From Candidatus Methylacidiphilales bacterium (lineage in GTDB: Bacteria > Verrucomicrobiota > Verrucomicrobiia > Methylacidiphilales > JANWVL01): a stretch of 33,161 nt of DNA. The translations under genes were made by a program, and so were the position numbers. The notes beneath the pieces are model-generated. The model did no database searches, was not told the origin of the DNA, and saw only the letters and a program-made list of their open reading frames with translations. Below, piece after piece: positions 1 to 7,547 of the stretch (position 1 is its first letter; each line of letters opens with the position of its first letter). The stretch lies in the NCBI GenBank assembly GCA_025056655.1, contig JANWVL010000042.1:1-33161 (forward strand). The letters run 5' to 3'.

Positions 1-3000
1 TCTGGGCATCACTTCGATTGGCGAAGCTGTTCGTGAGGGGACGAAATTCAAGCATATCGCTTCGCTTCTAATTCCTGAAGATTTTGCCGAAACAAAAAAC
101 GCCGCCGCCCGCCGCCGCATGTTCCGGACGCGCCTAGCCCATAAAGCCCGCGAAGCCTGGCTCGACGAGGTTTGGAAAAAGGCCGGCCTAGAGCTTCCGC
201 GAAAGCGAATCGTCGCTAAATACGACGAAAACGGAAACGAAGTCTCCGGCAATAAAAGAGGCACTTGGAAATTAAAGCAAACAGCAGACCCGCGACTCGA
301 ACGCGAATTTGCCTCCGGAAACGATTCTACCTGCTACACTTCCTGCCTCCTTCGCATCAAGCTCCTGCGTGGAGAGAAACTCGAACCCTGGCAAATCTAC
401 AAAGCCCTTCATTCCGCTATCCAAAAGCGCGGCTATGATCCTAATATCCCTTGGAAAGCCGCCGAAGCACGCCGAGCAGGAAAAACTATCGAAGAAATCG
501 ATGAGGAGGAACGGAAGGCTGACGCAGAACTCGCCAAAAAAGATCCCGCTTACCAAGCCGCTCTCAACGCCTGGCGCGCCTTCAAAACACAAGTGCCTCA
601 AAACTATCACTTTCCCTGCTACTACGACGCCCACAAAATGAAATTGTGGGATCCATCAAAACCCGACGAGCTTAAAACCAAAACCGATCACACAGCGGAA
701 TCTACGCAGAACGTCCGCTTTGATCGCACAGACGTGGCCAAGGAAATTCAGGCTTTGGCCCAGGCGGCGGTCAAACAAATCCCCGCCCTCGCGGCTGCCG
801 CACCTCCAGGCGTCAGCTTTGCTGACTACCTTTGCTACGGCCCTACCGGCAAGCCTTACGCCTCCTACGATCCGAAGCTACGTAAGCGATACAACCTTCA
901 CCTCGGCTCCGAAGAAGACTGGCAAGGCGTCCTTGGCCAAAAAATCCCCCGCTTCGATAACCGCATCCTCGCTCCCTGCGCCCTGATCCCGAGGTTTCAC
1001 ACATGCAGGGCTGATGACCCGCTTGTGATGGAGGTCACCTACCTGATGAAGCTAAAAAACATCCTCGTCGAGCGATGTGGAATCCAACAGCGCCTCACAC
1101 CTCAAGACATTCAAAAGCTCTTCAACGAAGACAAGCCCGTATCTTTAAGTTTCACCCCCACCCAGTGGAAAAAATGGTGTAAGGAAAACGGATATTCACC
1201 CCTGCCTGGCCATGAAAAAATCGATCCTCCCAAGAAAACAGGCCGTTCACGCTTTTCGCGTCCGGCTTTACGACTGGTGAAAGAATTGATCCTTTCTGGA
1301 AAAAATCCGAAAGATTTTTACAAGGATCAAAAAACGAAAATCATCAATACCGATCCGAAGAAAGGTCTCATCCTTGCTGATCTCAAATTCATAGCCGATC
1401 TCGGTGACACAAGCTGGGAGTCATTTTATATTCCGGACCAAAGGCTCGATGCTCTGGAAACCAAGCACTCACAAAACGGCCAGTTAGATAAAGACGCCGC
1501 GATCCGCGAAGTTATCGGATCAATCAATGATCCCATCGTCCGCCATCGGCTCACGACCTTCAACCAGCGACTAATCAAGCTAGAGAAAAAATTTGGCATG
1601 CCTCATGAGGTTGTTTTGGAATTCGTGCGTGAAGACTTCATGGGAGAAAAAGCAAAAAGAGAACTCAAAAAATTTCAGGAAGAACGGCGGAAAGAGCGCG
1701 AAAAATCTGCCAACGAAGCTTCCCAATTCAGCACCGCAAGCTCCGCTCCTCTCAAGCTACAACTCTATCGCCAGCAAGGAGGCATTTGTCTCTACACCGG
1801 CGAGCCTTTGAGCGAACATCATCTCGATCAATATGAAATTGAACACATCGTGCCGCGTGAATTAGGCGGCCCCGATGCCATGCTGAATTACGTGCTGACA
1901 AAGCGAGAAACCAACAAAGAGAAAGACAGACGCATCCCCTTTGACTGGTTCAAGCAAACCAAAACCCAAAACGAATGGGAAGCCTACAAACAGCGTGTCG
2001 AATCAGCAGCCATTAATAACAAGAAAAAACAGCTCCTCCTCCGCGCTGATGCATCGGAGCTTGTGGAACGTTACACCGCGCTGGCCGAGACGGCTTGGAT
2101 CTCCAAGCTCGCGCAGAAAATCGTCTCGCTTCGCTTTGGATGGCGCAATGGAATAGATGCAAGCGGCAACAAGCGTATCATCATCATCTCAGGCGGACTT
2201 ACCGGGCGTATCCGTCGCAAATACCGCTTGAACCATGTCCTCAATCCCACCGCTCAGACTGAGGAAGAGGCTGAAAAAAAGAATCGTGATGACGACCGCC
2301 ATCATGCGCTTGACGCCATGATCATCAGCTTCCTGCCTGGATGGATGCGGGACAAATCCAAGCAGCATTTCTTCCGCTTCCCTGAGGAAGTCCAAAAAAA
2401 TCCGCCCGGTTTCTTTTCTAACTGCATCAAAAACGTCGTCCCAGAAAATCTGGCCTATCCCAAGCCGCGCTTAGCTCAGACAATTTACGGACTGCGCAGA
2501 GATAAGGAATCCAAGGTCATCGTCCAACGCGTCAGCCTTCTGAAATTGGCCTACAAAACTCTGAATATGCGAGAAACCTACGATCTCGAATATCTTCAAA
2601 AACAAATCACGTCCGTTCGCGATGACAATATCCGCAAGACCTTAGCGGCTTTTGCTCAAAGCAAACCCAGCGAGCAAGATTGGAAAAACTTTTGCGCCTC
2701 CTTCCGTCAACCTTCAAAAAATGGGCGGCAGGGACCTCTCATCAAAAAACTTTGGGTCAATGTAGGTGATCCGGAATCCTACCGCGACCTTTCTAAAGAC
2801 GGATCAGGAGCCTACTTCCAAGCCGAAAAATCTCATAAAGGACAGATCATCTACATCGAGCTAAAAAAGGACAAATCCGGCAAGATCACCGAGACTCCTC
2901 GTGTTGCCCCCGTTTATGTCTTTGACTCAGTGGCAAAAGTCAAAAAACGTTTGCTAGAGGAATTCGGCGACACAATCCGCATTTACGGTTTCTTCCAATC

Positions 3001-3187
3001 CGGCTGCACCATCGAAATCACCCAAGACCTCGTTCACAGCTCCACCGTGACATTACCCGCAGGCAAATACCGGCTGAATACAATCAAAGAAAAAAATGAG
3101 GTTGTTGTAACTTCTCCTTCAGGTAATAAGAGCCCAGCGATCGGCCTGAAAAAATTCATCGCAGCCGGTCTGCGCCGGGTAGATTAA
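1..3187 (+). CDS. cas9: CRISPR-associated endonuclease Cas9, type II-C, 5'-truncated by window edge
   Basis: RNA-guided DNA endonuclease, the effector of a type II CRISPR system. The frame is open from base 2, giving 1061 visible residues; numbering here starts at that codon. Residues 2-7 (GITSIG) are the end of RuvC motif I, so its catalytic Asp should be the codon ending at base 1 (a T, consistent with GAT). The Arg-rich bridge helix follows at about 33-55 (AAARRR). RuvC-II is at LEFVRE with E540. The HNH domain has EHIVP with H615, then LNYVLT and TNKEK. RuvC-III is HHALDA with H768 and D771. The remainder is the C-terminal PAM-interacting region. Glu stands where many Cas9s have Asp before the HNH His. 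All nuclease motifs look intact. The first in-frame ATG (119) lies inside the bridge helix and is not the start. The gene leads cas1 and cas2. Confidence 0.96.
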   Translation, partial: LGITSIGEAVREGTKFKHIASLLIPEDFAETKNAAARRRMFRTRLAHKAREAWLDEVWKKAGLELPRKRIVAKYDENGNEVSGNKRGTWKLKQTADPRLEREFASGNDSTCYTSCLLRIKLLRGEKLEPWQIYKALHSAIQKRGYDPNIPWKAAEARRAGKTIEEIDEEERKADAELAKKDPAYQAALNAWRAFKTQVPQNYHFPCYYDAHKMKLWDPSKPDELKTKTDHTAESTQNVRFDRTDVAKEIQALAQAAVKQIPALAAAAPPGVSFADYLCYGPTGKPYASYDPKLRKRYNLHLGSEEDWQGVLGQKIPRFDNRILAPCALIPRFHTCRADDPLVMEVTYLMKLKNILVERCGIQQRLTPQDIQKLFNEDKPVSLSFTPTQWKKWCKENGYSPLPGHEKIDPPKKTGRSRFSRPALRLVKELILSGKNPKDFYKDQKTKIINTDPKKGLILADLKFIADLGDTSWESFYIPDQRLDALETKHSQNGQLDKDAAIREVIGSINDPIVRHRLTTFNQRLIKLEKKFGMPHEVVLEFVREDFMGEKAKRELKKFQEERRKEREKSANEASQFSTASSAPLKLQLYRQQGGICLYTGEPLSEHHLDQYEIEHIVPRELGGPDAMLNYVLTKRETNKEKDRRIPFDWFKQTKTQNEWEAYKQRVESAAINNKKKQLLLRADASELVERYTALAETAWISKLAQKIVSLRFGWRNGIDASGNKRIIIISGGLTGRIRRKYRLNHVLNPTAQTEEEAEKKNRDDDRHHALDAMIISFLPGWMRDKSKQHFFRFPEEVQKNPPGFFSNCIKNVVPENLAYPKPRLAQTIYGLRRDKESKVIVQRVSLLKLAYKTLNMRETYDLEYLQKQITSVRDDNIRKTLAAFAQSKPSEQDWKNFCASFRQPSKNGRQGPLIKKLWVNVGDPESYRDLSKDGSGAYFQAEKSHKGQIIYIELKKDKSGKITETPRVAPVYVFDSVAKVKKRLLEEFGDTIRIYGFFQSGCTIEITQDLVHSSTVTLPAGKYRLNTIKEKNEVVVTSPSGNKSPAIGLKKFIAAGLRRVD

Positions 3188-3200
3188 ATCTTGGAGGCCT

Positions 3201-4157
3201 ATGAGCCACCACGTCCTGCACATCTTCAGTCACGGCAGCGCGCTGGCGAAAGAGCGCGGCTTTTTCGTCTGCAAATCGCCCGAGGCTGAAGAGCGACGGA
3301 TGCCGCTCGAAGACATCCGCGCTGTCGTCATCGCCGCGCGTGGAGTGCAGATTTCATCGAGCGCCATCTCTGCCCTGCTGGATCAAGATGCGATCCTGCT
3401 GCATTGCAATGAGCGTTACCAGCCTTGCGGCTGGACAGCGCCGATCAACCGCATCACCGACCTGCGCGCCTTTCAGAATCAAGTCCGCCTCCCCGCCCGT
3501 CTCAATTCTCGACTCTGGCAGGAGATGCTCCGCTACAAGACGATCAACCAAAGCCACGTCCTCCGCGCCGAGGGTCTTGCCTCCGCTCACCTGGAGCGCG
3601 CCGCCAAGCAGCCACAAATCAATGAAGCGGATTGCGCCCGCCGCTACTGGCAACTCTTCTTTCCCGCCATCGGCTATGTCGCCTCGCGCCGCGACCGCAA
3701 GGAAAACTCGCCCCCCAATCAAATGCTCAACTACGGCTACAGCGTCCTGGCTGCGCTCTGCCACCGCGCCCTCATCATTCACGGCCTTCTCCCGCAGCTC
3801 GGTCTTCACCACAAGCCACGCTATCGCAGCGAGCCGCTCGTCTATGATCTGATGGAGCCGTTCCGCCCCATGGTGGACTGGATGTTGGCGGAGTTTTTGA
3901 AGACAAGCGAAGAGCTGTCCCTTTGCGCTTGGGCTAAAAAAGTAGGCACTGGTCTTAGAGAGCTGCGGTTATCCAAAGGCAATTACACTCTAAAACTTCT
4001 TGATGCGATCGATGTCGCAGCATCTTCATTGGCACGCGCTTATGCGTTTCAAAGCGCTGCTGCATTATGGATTCCCGAGCTTATGATCCCGAGCAGCTCT
4101 GCAAATGGCGATCGAGAAATCCCCCAAGCCCCTTCTCCCTCCTCGAGCGAAGAATGA
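3201..4157 (+). CDS. cas1: CRISPR integrase Cas1 (type II)
   Basis: Metal-dependent integrase subunit that, with Cas2, inserts new spacers into the CRISPR array. The 318 residues fit type II Cas1 (usually about 290-310). The family's metal ligands are visible: E142 in NEADCARRYW, H203 in GLHH, and E219 in DLMEPFRPMVD. The N-terminal beta domain carries ISSSAISALL and the typical LLHCNERYQPCGW stretch. The ATG at 3201 follows a GGAGG at 3193-3197, close but clear, 13 bases after the cas9 stop. The gene ends in an ATGA overlap with cas2, so the three genes form one operon. The C-terminal 25 residues are Ser/Pro-rich and look like a disordered extension. Confidence 0.96.
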   Translation: MSHHVLHIFSHGSALAKERGFFVCKSPEAEERRMPLEDIRAVVIAARGVQISSSAISALLDQDAILLHCNERYQPCGWTAPINRITDLRAFQNQVRLPARLNSRLWQEMLRYKTINQSHVLRAEGLASAHLERAAKQPQINEADCARRYWQLFFPAIGYVASRRDRKENSPPNQMLNYGYSVLAALCHRALIIHGLLPQLGLHHKPRYRSEPLVYDLMEPFRPMVDWMLAEFLKTSEELSLCAWAKKVGTGLRELRLSKGNYTLKLLDAIDVAASSLARAYAFQSAAALWIPELMIPSSSANGDREIPQAPSPSSSEE

Positions 4158-4546
4158 ATACCAGCCCTTTTACTATGGGATGGCTTATGGCGATGTTTGA
4201 TCTACCGGTGACAACCGAGGATGAGCGCCGCGCGGCAACCCGCTTCCGAAACGATCTCCTCGAGGACGGTTTTTTGATGATCCAATACAGCGTCTATGCG
4301 CGACCTTGCGTCCACTTTGAGCAAATGCAGAAGCACGCTGAGCGAATTCGAAAAATTGCCCCTCGGGCTGGCAACGTGCGCATTCTCTTCGTTACGGATC
4401 AGCAGTGGGTGAAAAGCATTAACATCGTCGGTGAACGCCCGTTTGAGGATGAGACGAGTGCTTCATCTAATCCTTCTCCAACAAAACATAAAGATCGCCG
4501 AAGCCGACAAAAACATATACCGGGACAGATCGAGTTTTGGGAATAA
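4154..4546 (+). CDS. cas2: CRISPR adaptation protein Cas2
   Basis: Small ferredoxin-fold partner that bridges Cas1 dimers in the spacer-integration complex. I start it at the ATG at 4154, which overlaps the cas1 stop as ATGA. The reading frame is open further upstream but that part lies inside cas1. The 130-residue product has the conserved early Asp in MAMFDLPV (D16), then a QYSVYARPC strand and a VRILFVTDQQW strand typical of type II Cas2. A start at codon 8 or 12 would bring the length closer to the usual 100-110 residues. The C-terminal tail after about residue 95 is Ser/Lys/Arg-rich and ends in GQIEFWE. It is the last cas gene of the operon. Confidence 0.94.
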   Translation: MNTSPFTMGWLMAMFDLPVTTEDERRAATRFRNDLLEDGFLMIQYSVYARPCVHFEQMQKHAERIRKIAPRAGNVRILFVTDQQWVKSINIVGERPFEDETSASSNPSPTKHKDRRSRQKHIPGQIEFWE

Positions 4547-4599
4547 AATCCTGATAGCTCAGCCAAGCTGTGTAGCAAACAAGCACAAACTAAAAGGAC

Positions 4600-4635
4600 G
4601 GCCGCTCTACCGTGCAAGCAGTGGGTAGAGCGGCC
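4600..4635 (-). terminator. candidate minus-strand terminator hairpin downstream of cas2
   Basis: A perfect 12-bp stem pairs 4600-4611 (GGCCGCTCTACC) with 4624-4635 (GGTAGAGCGGCC) around a 12-nt loop. Read on the minus strand, the stem is followed by GTCCTTTTAGTTT, a modest U tract. On the plus strand it is followed by ATAGATTAG with no U tract. It therefore fits the end of a minus-strand transcript better than the end of the cas operon. Either role is inferred from shape alone. Confidence 0.45.
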
Positions 4636-4651
4636 ATAGATTAGTTAAGTC

Positions 4652-4743
4652 TTTCCCCAAGAAGACAGGCTGAACTCTGCTAAAATCGCCTATCTCAAGT
4701 GCTTTTGCAAGTTCTATTCTAACAGCCTGTCTTCTTGGGGAAA
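4652..4743. repeat. long perfect inverted repeat, 21-bp arms, 50-nt loop; possible small RNA
   Basis: The left arm at 4652-4672 starts TTTCCCCAAGAAG and ends GACAGGCTG. The right arm at 4723-4743 is its exact reverse complement. The 50 bases between are AT-rich. There is no U tract on either side and no obvious target-site duplication, so it is neither a simple terminator nor a clear transposon end. It is next to cas2 and just upstream, on the minus strand, of the hairpin at 4600-4635. A tracrRNA or other CRISPR-linked RNA, a cruciform site, or a dispersed palindromic repeat are all possible. Confidence 0.7.
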
Positions 4744-4888
4744 AGGGGGATGATTGGAGGCGGGCTTTGGTTGTGTGAATTAAAAGGGAGTATTGGTTGT
4801 GTTTTATGAGTTATTTGAGATGTGGCGTGCGGGGGGTGATGTTGCCTTGAGTTGCTCGATTGGGGAGGAGTTTGGGTTTTTAAGGGGG

Positions 4889-4929
4889 AAGCCCCAGTGC
4901 AGGGGTTAGGAGCTCCTGCGCTGGGGCTT
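4889..4929 (-). terminator. probable terminator of the 4956-5393 gene
   Basis: Fifteen-base arms at 4889-4903 and 4915-4929 (core AGCCCCAG / CTGGGGCT) pair with a single mismatched position around an 11-nt loop. It begins 27 bases past the stop codon of the minus-strand gene. On the minus strand the hairpin is followed by CCCCCTTAAAAA, so the U tract is weak. The odd position is a G-U wobble if transcribed on the plus strand and a C-A mismatch on the minus strand. Confidence 0.5.
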
Positions 4930-4955
4930 GTGGGTGGGGTTATTGGGGGGATGGT

Positions 4956-5393
4956 TTAGTCTTGGTCTTCGTCTTGTTCTTTTTGGAAGCTTAGGGACCG
5001 CCTTGCCCATCGGCAGGCATTTTCATCCATAGGGATCCAATCCCTATCGAAGGCTTCTAGGCTTTCGAGAGGGTCGGATCGGTCTTCGTCGTGCTCTTGT
5101 AGGAACTTGGTTTCGATAGGGTCATCTTCTCCACGTTCCTGTATTTTTTGGATTCGACTCATCACGTAACGAATGGCTTTTCCGAATCCATCGGGATCCT
5201 CGTGGGGGAGGATCATGATGTCGCGATATGGGAGTTTGTCGAATCCGCTGAGAATGATCGCACAGGCGACCACCGTTCGAGCGTCGTGAACTGCAAGTGC
5301 CCAATTTTCGTTGACCTTGATCAGTTCACTTTTGATTCCTTTTGCGGTTAAAGCCTTTTTGAAGGCTTTGATGGCTTGTAAGTGTTTGCTCAT
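4956..5393 (-). CDS. hypothetical acidic protein, 145 aa
   Basis: I do not recognise this family. The N-terminal part has a basic helix (HLQAIKAFKKALTAKG), then a compact alpha/beta-looking segment with ALAVHDARTVVACAIILSG and DIMILPHEDPDGFGKAIRYVM. The C-terminal third is strongly acidic and ends in EQDEDQD. There is no signal peptide or membrane helix, so it is probably cytosolic. It is a single-gene unit: a promoter lies directly upstream and a hairpin follows the stop. It is convergent with the cas operon, but nothing in it suggests a CRISPR function. The frame is clean and the start ATG at 5391-5393 is the first available. Confidence 0.7.
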   Translation of the reverse strand: MSKHLQAIKAFKKALTAKGIKSELIKVNENWALAVHDARTVVACAIILSGFDKLPYRDIMILPHEDPDGFGKAIRYVMSRIQKIQERGEDDPIETKFLQEHDEDRSDPLESLEAFDRDWIPMDENACRWARRSLSFQKEQDEDQD

Positions 5394-5402
5394 CGGAAAT
5401 CG

Positions 5403-5433
5403 ATTATGCGAGGGTAGGATGATGTTTTGTCAA
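5403..5433 (-). promoter_or_regulatory. sigma70-like promoter for the 145-aa gene, almost leaderless
   Basis: On the minus strand there is a perfect TTGACA (5428-5433) and CATAAT (5403-5408, five of six matches) separated by 19 bases. Transcription would start near 5396, only about three bases before the ATG. The spacing is at the long end of the usual range. Confidence 0.5.
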
Positions 5434-5567
5434 GTGAATGATGGAGGTAGGGGGAGGATGAGGTTGTCTTGGGTGGAGGGTAGGATTGGAGCCTGATCTT
5501 TGGAGGTGGGAGTGGTTGGTTTGAACGGGTAAGAGTTGTCAGCAAAAAGAGGAGGGTGGGCGGTTAG

Positions 5568-7547
5568 CTACGCTCGGATGCCTTGTCGGCGAGCCATTTC
5601 TGCGAAGTGTCCACCAGCAGCGAGGAGTTCGGAGAAGGTGCCTGTCTCGACGATGGCGCCTTTGTGCATGACGATGATGCGGTGCATTTGGGCGAGTGTG
5701 GAGAGGCGGTGGGCGATGGCGATCACAGTGCGTTCCTCGGAAAGGCGGTCTATAGCGGCTTGGACGATGCTTTCGGCTTGGGCGTCGAGGGCGGCTGTGG
5801 CCTCGTCGAGGATGAGGATGGGGGCGTTGCGGATGAAAGCGCGAGCGATGGCGATGCGTTGGCGCTGGCCGCCGGAGAGGCGTGAGCCGCGCTCGCCCAA
5901 GACAGTGTCGTAGCCGTGGGGCATTTGTTCAATGAATTCATGGGCGTAGGCGGCTTTGGCGGCGGCGATGATTTCATCTCTTGTGGCGTGTGGCTTGCCG
6001 AGGGCGATATTTTCAGCGACTGTTTTATTGAAGATGGCGACTTCTTGGCTGACTAGGGCGATGAGGGATCGGATGGTGGAGAATGAGAGATCTTTGATAT
6101 TGATGTCGTCGAATAGAATTTCGCCGGAGGTCGGATCGAAGAAGCGGAGGAGTAGATTGATGAGGGTGCTTTTGCCGCTGCCGCTTTCGCCGGCGATACC
6201 GAGGCGAAGACCTTTGGGGATGGTAAGGGTGATGTTTTTTAGGACTGGCTCTTCATCGTCGTAGGAGAAGGTGACGTTGCGGATCTCGATGGCGCGGGTG
6301 AAATGAGGTAAGGGGACTGGCTCAGCGGGCTCGCGGATTTGGGGTTGTTCGTTGAGGAGGGTGAAGAGACGTTTGACGTTGACACTGCTTTGGGCGAGCT
6401 TGAGGTTAACGCTGGCGAGAGATTTGATGGGGTTAAAGAGTAGGCCGACTGCGAGCATGTAGGTAAGGAGATCCGCGATTTTCATTTCTGTGATGAAGAC
6501 ATACATGAAGATGGTGCCAACGGCGAAGGCCATGATCATTTCGACGAGGGGATTGATGAGGCTGGAGGCTTGGCCTTGCTTCATTGAGTAATGGATGAGC
6601 TTGGCGGAGTGTTTGTCAAACTCATCGAGCTGGTGTTTTTCGAGGTTGTAGGCTTTCACGACGCGGATGTTTCCTAGGGCTTCGAATATTGCGCCGCCTT
6701 GTTTGATGCTGACTTCGATGTTTTTTTCGACGGCTTTTTTGATTTTTTTGGTTAGGACTCGCATGGGGACGGCGACGAATGCGATAAAGAAGAGTGCGAT
6801 GAGGGTGAGCTGCCAATTGATGGCGAACATGGAGATGACGATGCCGAGGATGGTGGCTGGATGTTTTAAGTAGTCGTTTAGTGTGATATTCATGGTGTCG
6901 AAGATCGAGGCTGAATCTTGACCTAGTCGCGTGCTGATGTCGGCGAGGGTTGATTTGTTAAAGAAATTCATGGAGAGCGAGTAGAGTTTTTCGAGGACGT
7001 CGTGGCGGAGGTCGGTGATGAAGCGTTGGCTGACCCAGCGAATGCAGTAGGAGTTAGTGTAATTGAATATGCCTCTGATGAGCACGATTGCTGGAAAGAG
7101 AAGGAGCCCGCCGATGAATTGCCGCCAGTCGAGAGGGCGCCCATACTTGGGGAACCATGGGTCCATGATTTGTCCGAGCTGGTCTGCCCATTTTTGAGCT
7201 TTTGTTTTGAGGTTGTGAAGGGTTTGTTTGAAGGCGATGCGGATGTTATTGAGACGTTGAAGGAGCGGATAGGTAGGTTGGGAGAAATTGTCTATGGAAT
7301 CTTCGTTCATCGCTTGGTTGGGAGAATGTGGGTCTGAGAGAAGGGGGAGAGCCGGGTTGGCAGGGGATAAGGCAGCTTGCGTGGCTGATCGGCTCTCCAT
7401 CCTTGAGCTGAGATATTTCAAAGCCCAGATGGAGGAGACATTCATGGCGGCAAAAAGCAGGCCACTAAGAATTCCGACGGTAAATCGAAACCAGTAGCGC
7501 CTGAGATAAGGCCAACCAAAGATAAGCGTATCCCAAAGAAGTTTCAT
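5568..7547 (-). CDS. MsbA-like ABC exporter (fused membrane and ATPase domains)
   Basis: Half-transporter that would homodimerise in the inner membrane and flip lipid A-core or a similar lipid. I start it at the ATG at 7545-7547, which overlaps the upstream epimerase stop as ATGA. The frame extends to 7583 but only inside that gene. The product has 659 residues. A first membrane helix (about 17-40) is followed by an unusually long polar segment of roughly 110 residues before the next helix; MsbA normally has a short loop there. The ATPase domain has Walker A (GESGSGKST, about 450), the signature LSGGQRQRIAIARA (about 557), Walker B ILILDEATAALD, and an AHRLST switch. The epimerase partner hints at a glycolipid or glycan cargo. 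Confidence 0.88.
   Translation of the reverse strand: MKLLWDTLIFGWPYLRRYWFRFTVGILSGLLFAAMNVSSIWALKYLSSRMESRSATQAALSPANPALPLLSDPHSPNQAMNEDSIDNFSQPTYPLLQRLNNIRIAFKQTLHNLKTKAQKWADQLGQIMDPWFPKYGRPLDWRQFIGGLLLFPAIVLIRGIFNYTNSYCIRWVSQRFITDLRHDVLEKLYSLSMNFFNKSTLADISTRLGQDSASIFDTMNITLNDYLKHPATILGIVISMFAINWQLTLIALFFIAFVAVPMRVLTKKIKKAVEKNIEVSIKQGGAIFEALGNIRVVKAYNLEKHQLDEFDKHSAKLIHYSMKQGQASSLINPLVEMIMAFAVGTIFMYVFITEMKIADLLTYMLAVGLLFNPIKSLASVNLKLAQSSVNVKRLFTLLNEQPQIREPAEPVPLPHFTRAIEIRNVTFSYDDEEPVLKNITLTIPKGLRLGIAGESGSGKSTLINLLLRFFDPTSGEILFDDINIKDLSFSTIRSLIALVSQEVAIFNKTVAENIALGKPHATRDEIIAAAKAAYAHEFIEQMPHGYDTVLGERGSRLSGGQRQRIAIARAFIRNAPILILDEATAALDAQAESIVQAAIDRLSEERTVIAIAHRLSTLAQMHRIIVMHKGAIVETGTFSELLAAGGHFAEMARRQGIRA

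Follow-up and report, generated by a model that had tools for sequence, protein, structure and literature searches.

The window, by which the whole analysed stretch of 33,161 nucleotides is meant, carries a cas9-cas1-cas2 operon followed on the opposite strand by what is most probably the tracrRNA of this Cas9 (4589-4709) and the terminal, truncated repeat of a collapsed, spacerless CRISPR array (4716-4743), a reading to which a probability of about 0.92 is assigned. The tracrRNA belongs to a family that is not matched by Rfam 15 and serves a little-studied group of Cas9 proteins, for which repeats, anti-repeats and terminators of 14 loci are now available. The spacerless state, if true, would represent a natural CRISPR-Cas9 system with its memory reset to zero, and hence a case for asking whether such systems restart acquisition or take another role. 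The coordinates of the features are collected in Table 1.

Table 1. Features of the cas9 locus in the window, with strand and supporting details
Feature	Position	Strand	Remarks
cas9	2..3187	+	about 1,081 aa including about 20 N-terminal residues on contig C1; NCBIfam Cas9d 1076 bits, Cas9 TIGR01865 235 bits
cas1	3201..4157	+	TIGR03639 161 bits; agrees with 14 relatives at all 42 columns that are invariant in them
cas2	4154..4546	+	TIGR01573 63 bits; 28 of 28 invariant columns kept
tracrRNA gene (by homology)	4589..4709	-	5' end estimated, 3' end after the U tract; covariance model R1 matches 4589-4665(-)
tracrRNA 3' hairpin/terminator	4600..4635	-	apical loop CACUGCUUGCAC at 4612-4623 conserved in relatives
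tracrRNA anti-repeat	4645..4672	-	ending ..GGGGAAAGACTTAAC; position and ending (..GUCUUAAC type) as in relatives
leader of array and 5' region of tracrRNA	4673..4715	-	TTGACAGA-like box found after the repeat in relatives is weak here
single CRISPR repeat left, with 28 of 36 nt	4716..4743	-	crRNA sense TTTCCCCAAGAAGACAGGCTGTTAGAAT; matches repeats of L036, L052 and L035 (ATTCTAACAG..)
possible repeat-borne extended -10 promoter TGTTAGAAT	4716..4724	-	motif seen in the sequence; promoter role by analogy with II-C (PMC8092290)
site at which the repeat lacks its 8 spacer-proximal nt	4744..4751	.	AGGGGGAT instead of about GACAAAAC

Genomic setting, cas genes and subtype

The window is the entire contig C42 of a metagenome-assembled genome (2.44 Mb in 178 contigs). 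At its start it overlaps the end of contig C1, and at its end the start of contig C102, in both cases by exactly 141 identical bp. Exact overlaps of this length are characteristic of assembly with MEGAHIT at k = 141. Contig C42 begins about 20 codons inside cas9, with cas1 and then cas2 following, and the missing start of cas9, in which the RuvC aspartate (..WAFDLGITSIG) is encoded, is found on contig C1. Upstream of cas9, contig C1 carries a divergently oriented gene with a product that reads as cytochrome c oxidase subunit I, and neither an array nor a further repeat copy was found in the 20 kb of this contig searched there. Cas9 keeps nearly all residues that are invariant in 14 relatives, the exceptions being two encoded on contig C1 and one glycine in a gap.

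The operon consists of cas9, cas1 and cas2 without csn2 or cas4, and its gene content is II-C-like, with a strong match of Cas9 to the NCBIfam model labelled Cas9d (1076 bits at a cut-off of 375 bits). The protein resembles Cas9d of type II-D (PMC9755519, PMC11706934) in scoring far above this cut-off but differs in size, since the published Cas9d structure is that of a 747-aa protein (PMC11706934) as compared to about 1,081 aa here, and in the presence of cas1 and cas2 in the operon, which only few Cas9d loci contain (PMC9755519).

Inverted repeats downstream of cas2

The sequence-only reading of this DNA had described two perfect inverted repeats next to the cas operon, and both were recovered exactly. 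The arms of the 21-bp repeat (4652-4672 and 4723-4743) are 100% complementary and lie 50 nt apart, and those of the 12-bp hairpin (4600-4611 and 4624-4635) are likewise 100% complementary at a distance of 12 nt, with the short U tract claimed to follow the hairpin present as the minus-strand tail GTCCTTTTAG. The number of perfect 21-bp inverted repeats expected in 33 kb, at a spacing of up to 200, is about 1e-6. Folding of both strands, proposed at that time as a check, gave z = -8.0 for the minus strand, on which the segment 4570-4770 folds at -79.8 kcal/mol, and z = -4.9 for the plus strand.

Perfect palindromes are common beside gene ends, and the two structures might on this ground be taken for unrelated hairpins, that is a REP or MITE-like element next to a plain terminator. 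A further check proposed earlier, the search of the genome for other copies of the arm, returned its 20-nt core only in the two known copies at up to three mismatches in the 2.44-Mb assembly, and it is therefore not a REP-like element, for which many dispersed copies rather than a single genomic locus would be expected. Since the homologous position in relatives also speaks against unrelated hairpins and the covariance model match described below refutes them, they are left with a negligible probability. The arm recurs exactly once in another genome (G056), but this copy was rejected as a chance match, being located within an apparent coding gene as judged by eye, and a DNA search of 60 relatives of the order with this region of the window returned no homologue. 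A separate near-perfect inverted repeat of 15 bp, without a clear U tract, is located at 4889-4929 downstream of a hypothetical gene (4956-5393, minus strand).

Identification of a tracrRNA gene by homology

Related loci were obtained from Cas9 searches (L036, L048-L052, L081-L084, L087, L088, L090, L093 and the Akkermansia-labelled bin L035/L086). The named nearest Cas9 relatives are mostly from Verrucomicrobia, Akkermansia and Spartobacteria bins, with one labelled Blastochloris, and relatives share 33-57% identity with the window Cas9. Fourteen related loci have a common order of cas9-cas1-cas2, a minus-strand anti-repeat with a hairpin (apical loop CACUGC..GCAC) and then the array, which comes after cas2 in all related loci (L090 and L035 read directly). 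The anti-repeat of these relatives, situated between cas2 and the first repeat, ends in GUCUUAACUGA or a near variant and is followed by the hairpin and, in most, by a U tract. Their repeats are 36 nt long with a 66-bp period and, in crRNA sense, most read GTTTTGAC..., with a TAGAAT/TACAAT-like hexamer at the end. In the window, the minus strand reads ...CAGCCTGTCTTCTTGGGGAAAGACTTAACTAATCTAT-GGCCGCTCTACC-CACTGCTTGCAC-GGTAGAGCGGCC-GTCCTTTT, and its repeat arm lies 66 nt from the CUUAAC box, a distance that ranges from 57 to 88 nt for the first repeat of relatives.

A covariance model (R1), derived from 13 relatives but not from the window itself and having 13 of its 16 pairs changed on both sides, matched 4589-4665(-) of the window over its full length (55.8 bits, E 5.6e-10), this being its single match in the genome. 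Over 365 genomes of the class, the model found 11 loci in 10 genomes, namely the window's own and nine others, and all nine others carry this Cas9; no match was obtained in two genomes of the order that lack this Cas9, and in most relatives lacking a match a contig end truncates cas9. The window is the lowest-scoring of the full-length matches, the others having 57-92 bits. Given the model match and an occurrence only together with this Cas9, the minus-strand RNA predicted at 4589-4709 is therefore a tracrRNA by homology, presumably transcribed. Its gene lies about 43 bp after cas2 and its occurrence follows this Cas9 across the 365 genomes, its anti-repeat is homologous to those of relatives and pairs perfectly over 21 bp with the remaining repeat, and its 3' tail contains the hairpin with intrinsic terminator covered by the model, with an apical loop conserved in the clade. 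Thus, the original guess of a structured minus-strand RNA with a terminator, possibly a tracrRNA, is supported in 3' hairpin, direction and position by the homologous loci and by the model, and the suggestion that the two arms are a repeat and its anti-repeat gains support from the same loci through the anti-repeat ending GUCUUAAC. The Rfam 15 scan of the window returned tRNAs only, and its sub-threshold matches to miRNA families were dismissed as long-hairpin artefacts.

Among known systems, the window comes closest in its parts to the type II tracrRNAs of verrucomicrobial and Akkermansia-like cas9-cas1-cas2 loci with II-C content, having an anti-repeat followed by the conserved UUAACUGA, and a 3' hairpin with terminator, all placed between cas2 and the array and opposite to the cas genes. 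It differs from these loci in that the array amounts to one truncated repeat, the leader motif is weak and the lower stem of the repeat is missing. The repeat parts of crRNAs would find their pairing partner in the anti-repeat (4645-4672), and the 12-bp hairpin, whose apical loop is conserved, is the 3' hairpin and terminator of the tracrRNA.

The remaining repeat and the missing array

The segment 4716-4743 reads ATTCTAACAGCCTGTCTTCTTGGGGAAA, comparable to ATTCTGACAGACC.. in L052, AATCTAACAGAACC.. in L036 and ACTCTAACAGACCTC.. in L035, and the full repeat deduced from the anti-repeat is GTTTTGTCTTTCCCCAAGAAGACAGGCTGTTAGAAT. Absence of the last 8 nt removes a 3-bp lower stem and a 2x2 internal loop that 14 of 14 relatives form; apart from this lower part, the repeat:anti-repeat duplex of the window (-42 kcal/mol) has the stem found in relatives. 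A weak point is the poor conservation of the leader motif TTGACAGA adjoining the repeat, for which the window has TTGCAAAA. Further or decayed repeats above chance were not found in 4540-5600, nor were other copies in the rest of the genome by pattern and model searches. What is present is hence one truncated repeat instead of at least two repeats with spacers, and the earlier remark that no array is visible was borne out, with the second arm being this single repeat and the array absent from the assembly.

Divergence of the distal terminal repeat at its spacer-proximal end is seen in five of 11 readable arrays of relatives (L048, L049, L081, L082 and L087), where it affects between a single base and over half of the repeat. 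Since the remaining repeat of the window is intact on the leader side and diverged on the trailer side, recombination of the first with the terminal repeat is the preferred explanation for the missing array. The array has thus most likely collapsed to its terminal repeat with the loss of seemingly all spacers, most simply by such a recombination event. The main rival to this collapse keeps the assignment of tracrRNA and repeat but takes the array to be intact in living cells, the assembler having passed directly between the leader-side and the terminal repeat and omitted the spacers; it is considered rather unlikely. In its favour, this is a metagenome assembly of 178 contigs, several relatives have contigs that break off at the array or within cas9, and the 28 nt retained would be common to the first and the terminal repeat, as a jump at short k would leave. 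Against such a jump, the 141-bp overlaps at the contig ends point to a graph with k = 141, and collapse of a 28-bp repeat is not expected there; moreover, an array present in the reads should branch the graph rather than give a clean path into the next gene, and the bin is without any repeat-bearing contig.

A natural single-guide RNA would offer another use for the two arms, in which a minus-strand transcript from upstream of 4752 joins repeat and anti-repeat in cis and provides Cas9 with a fixed guide. One strand indeed carries guide side, repeat, loop, anti-repeat and tail in the order of an sgRNA, and the same strand has the z of -8.0, but this cis order is normal in relatives too and follows from the layout of the locus, and the guide-proximal 8 nt, and with them the lower stem of 14 of 14 relatives, are absent. 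Furthermore, the longest match of the supposed guide to the cas9 promoter is 8 nt (chance 0.28), with no more than an 11-nt match in the locus, and this explanation is accordingly held to be very unlikely. A comparable case is tracr-L of S. pyogenes, a natural single guide: both have a repeat-like element and an anti-repeat on one strand that are able to fold in cis, but the window has no cas-promoter match for its guide, lacks the lower stem and owes the cis order to its locus layout.

Possible function after the proposed array collapse

In type II-C systems each repeat of the array contains a promoter, from which transcription proceeds in the direction of the leader (PMC8092290). The window would agree with this arrangement: the crRNA sense corresponds to the minus strand, the leader faces the tracrRNA, and the repeat ends in TGTTAGAAT, which has the form of an extended -10 element. 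Transcripts started in the last repeat of a collapsed array would run into the tracrRNA, and the remaining repeat may still serve as its promoter; a scan with the sigma-70 consensus found no tracrRNA promoter. If expressed, the tracrRNA would be without a crRNA partner from this locus, and Cas1-Cas2 could in principle still integrate a spacer at the leader-repeat junction. An extension of this proposal, in which Cas9, Cas1, Cas2 and tracrRNA are intact beside a spacerless one-repeat array and the repeat is retained either because its 3' end is the tracrRNA promoter or because its hairpin with the anti-repeat in cis gives a fixed natural guide RNA with a non-defence role, is regarded as improbable.

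Variation among related loci

A TTGAC(A/G)GA-like box adjoins the first repeat on the tracrRNA side in L036, L049, L052, L081-L084, L087, L088, L090 and L093, and this conserved box could possibly represent the -35 box of the tracrRNA, an anchor in the leader for spacer integration, or both. In a member of the same order (L037, 7800-10153 in G029:C114), cas9 is split by stops and frame changes, its best segment having 57% identity, and may be either a pseudogene or the product of a low-coverage assembly error. The Akkermansia-labelled bin (L035) contains two tandem minus-strand copies of the tracrRNA (4754-4832 and 5043-5121), of which the first keeps the leader motif with no adjacent repeat, and the array starts after the second copy.
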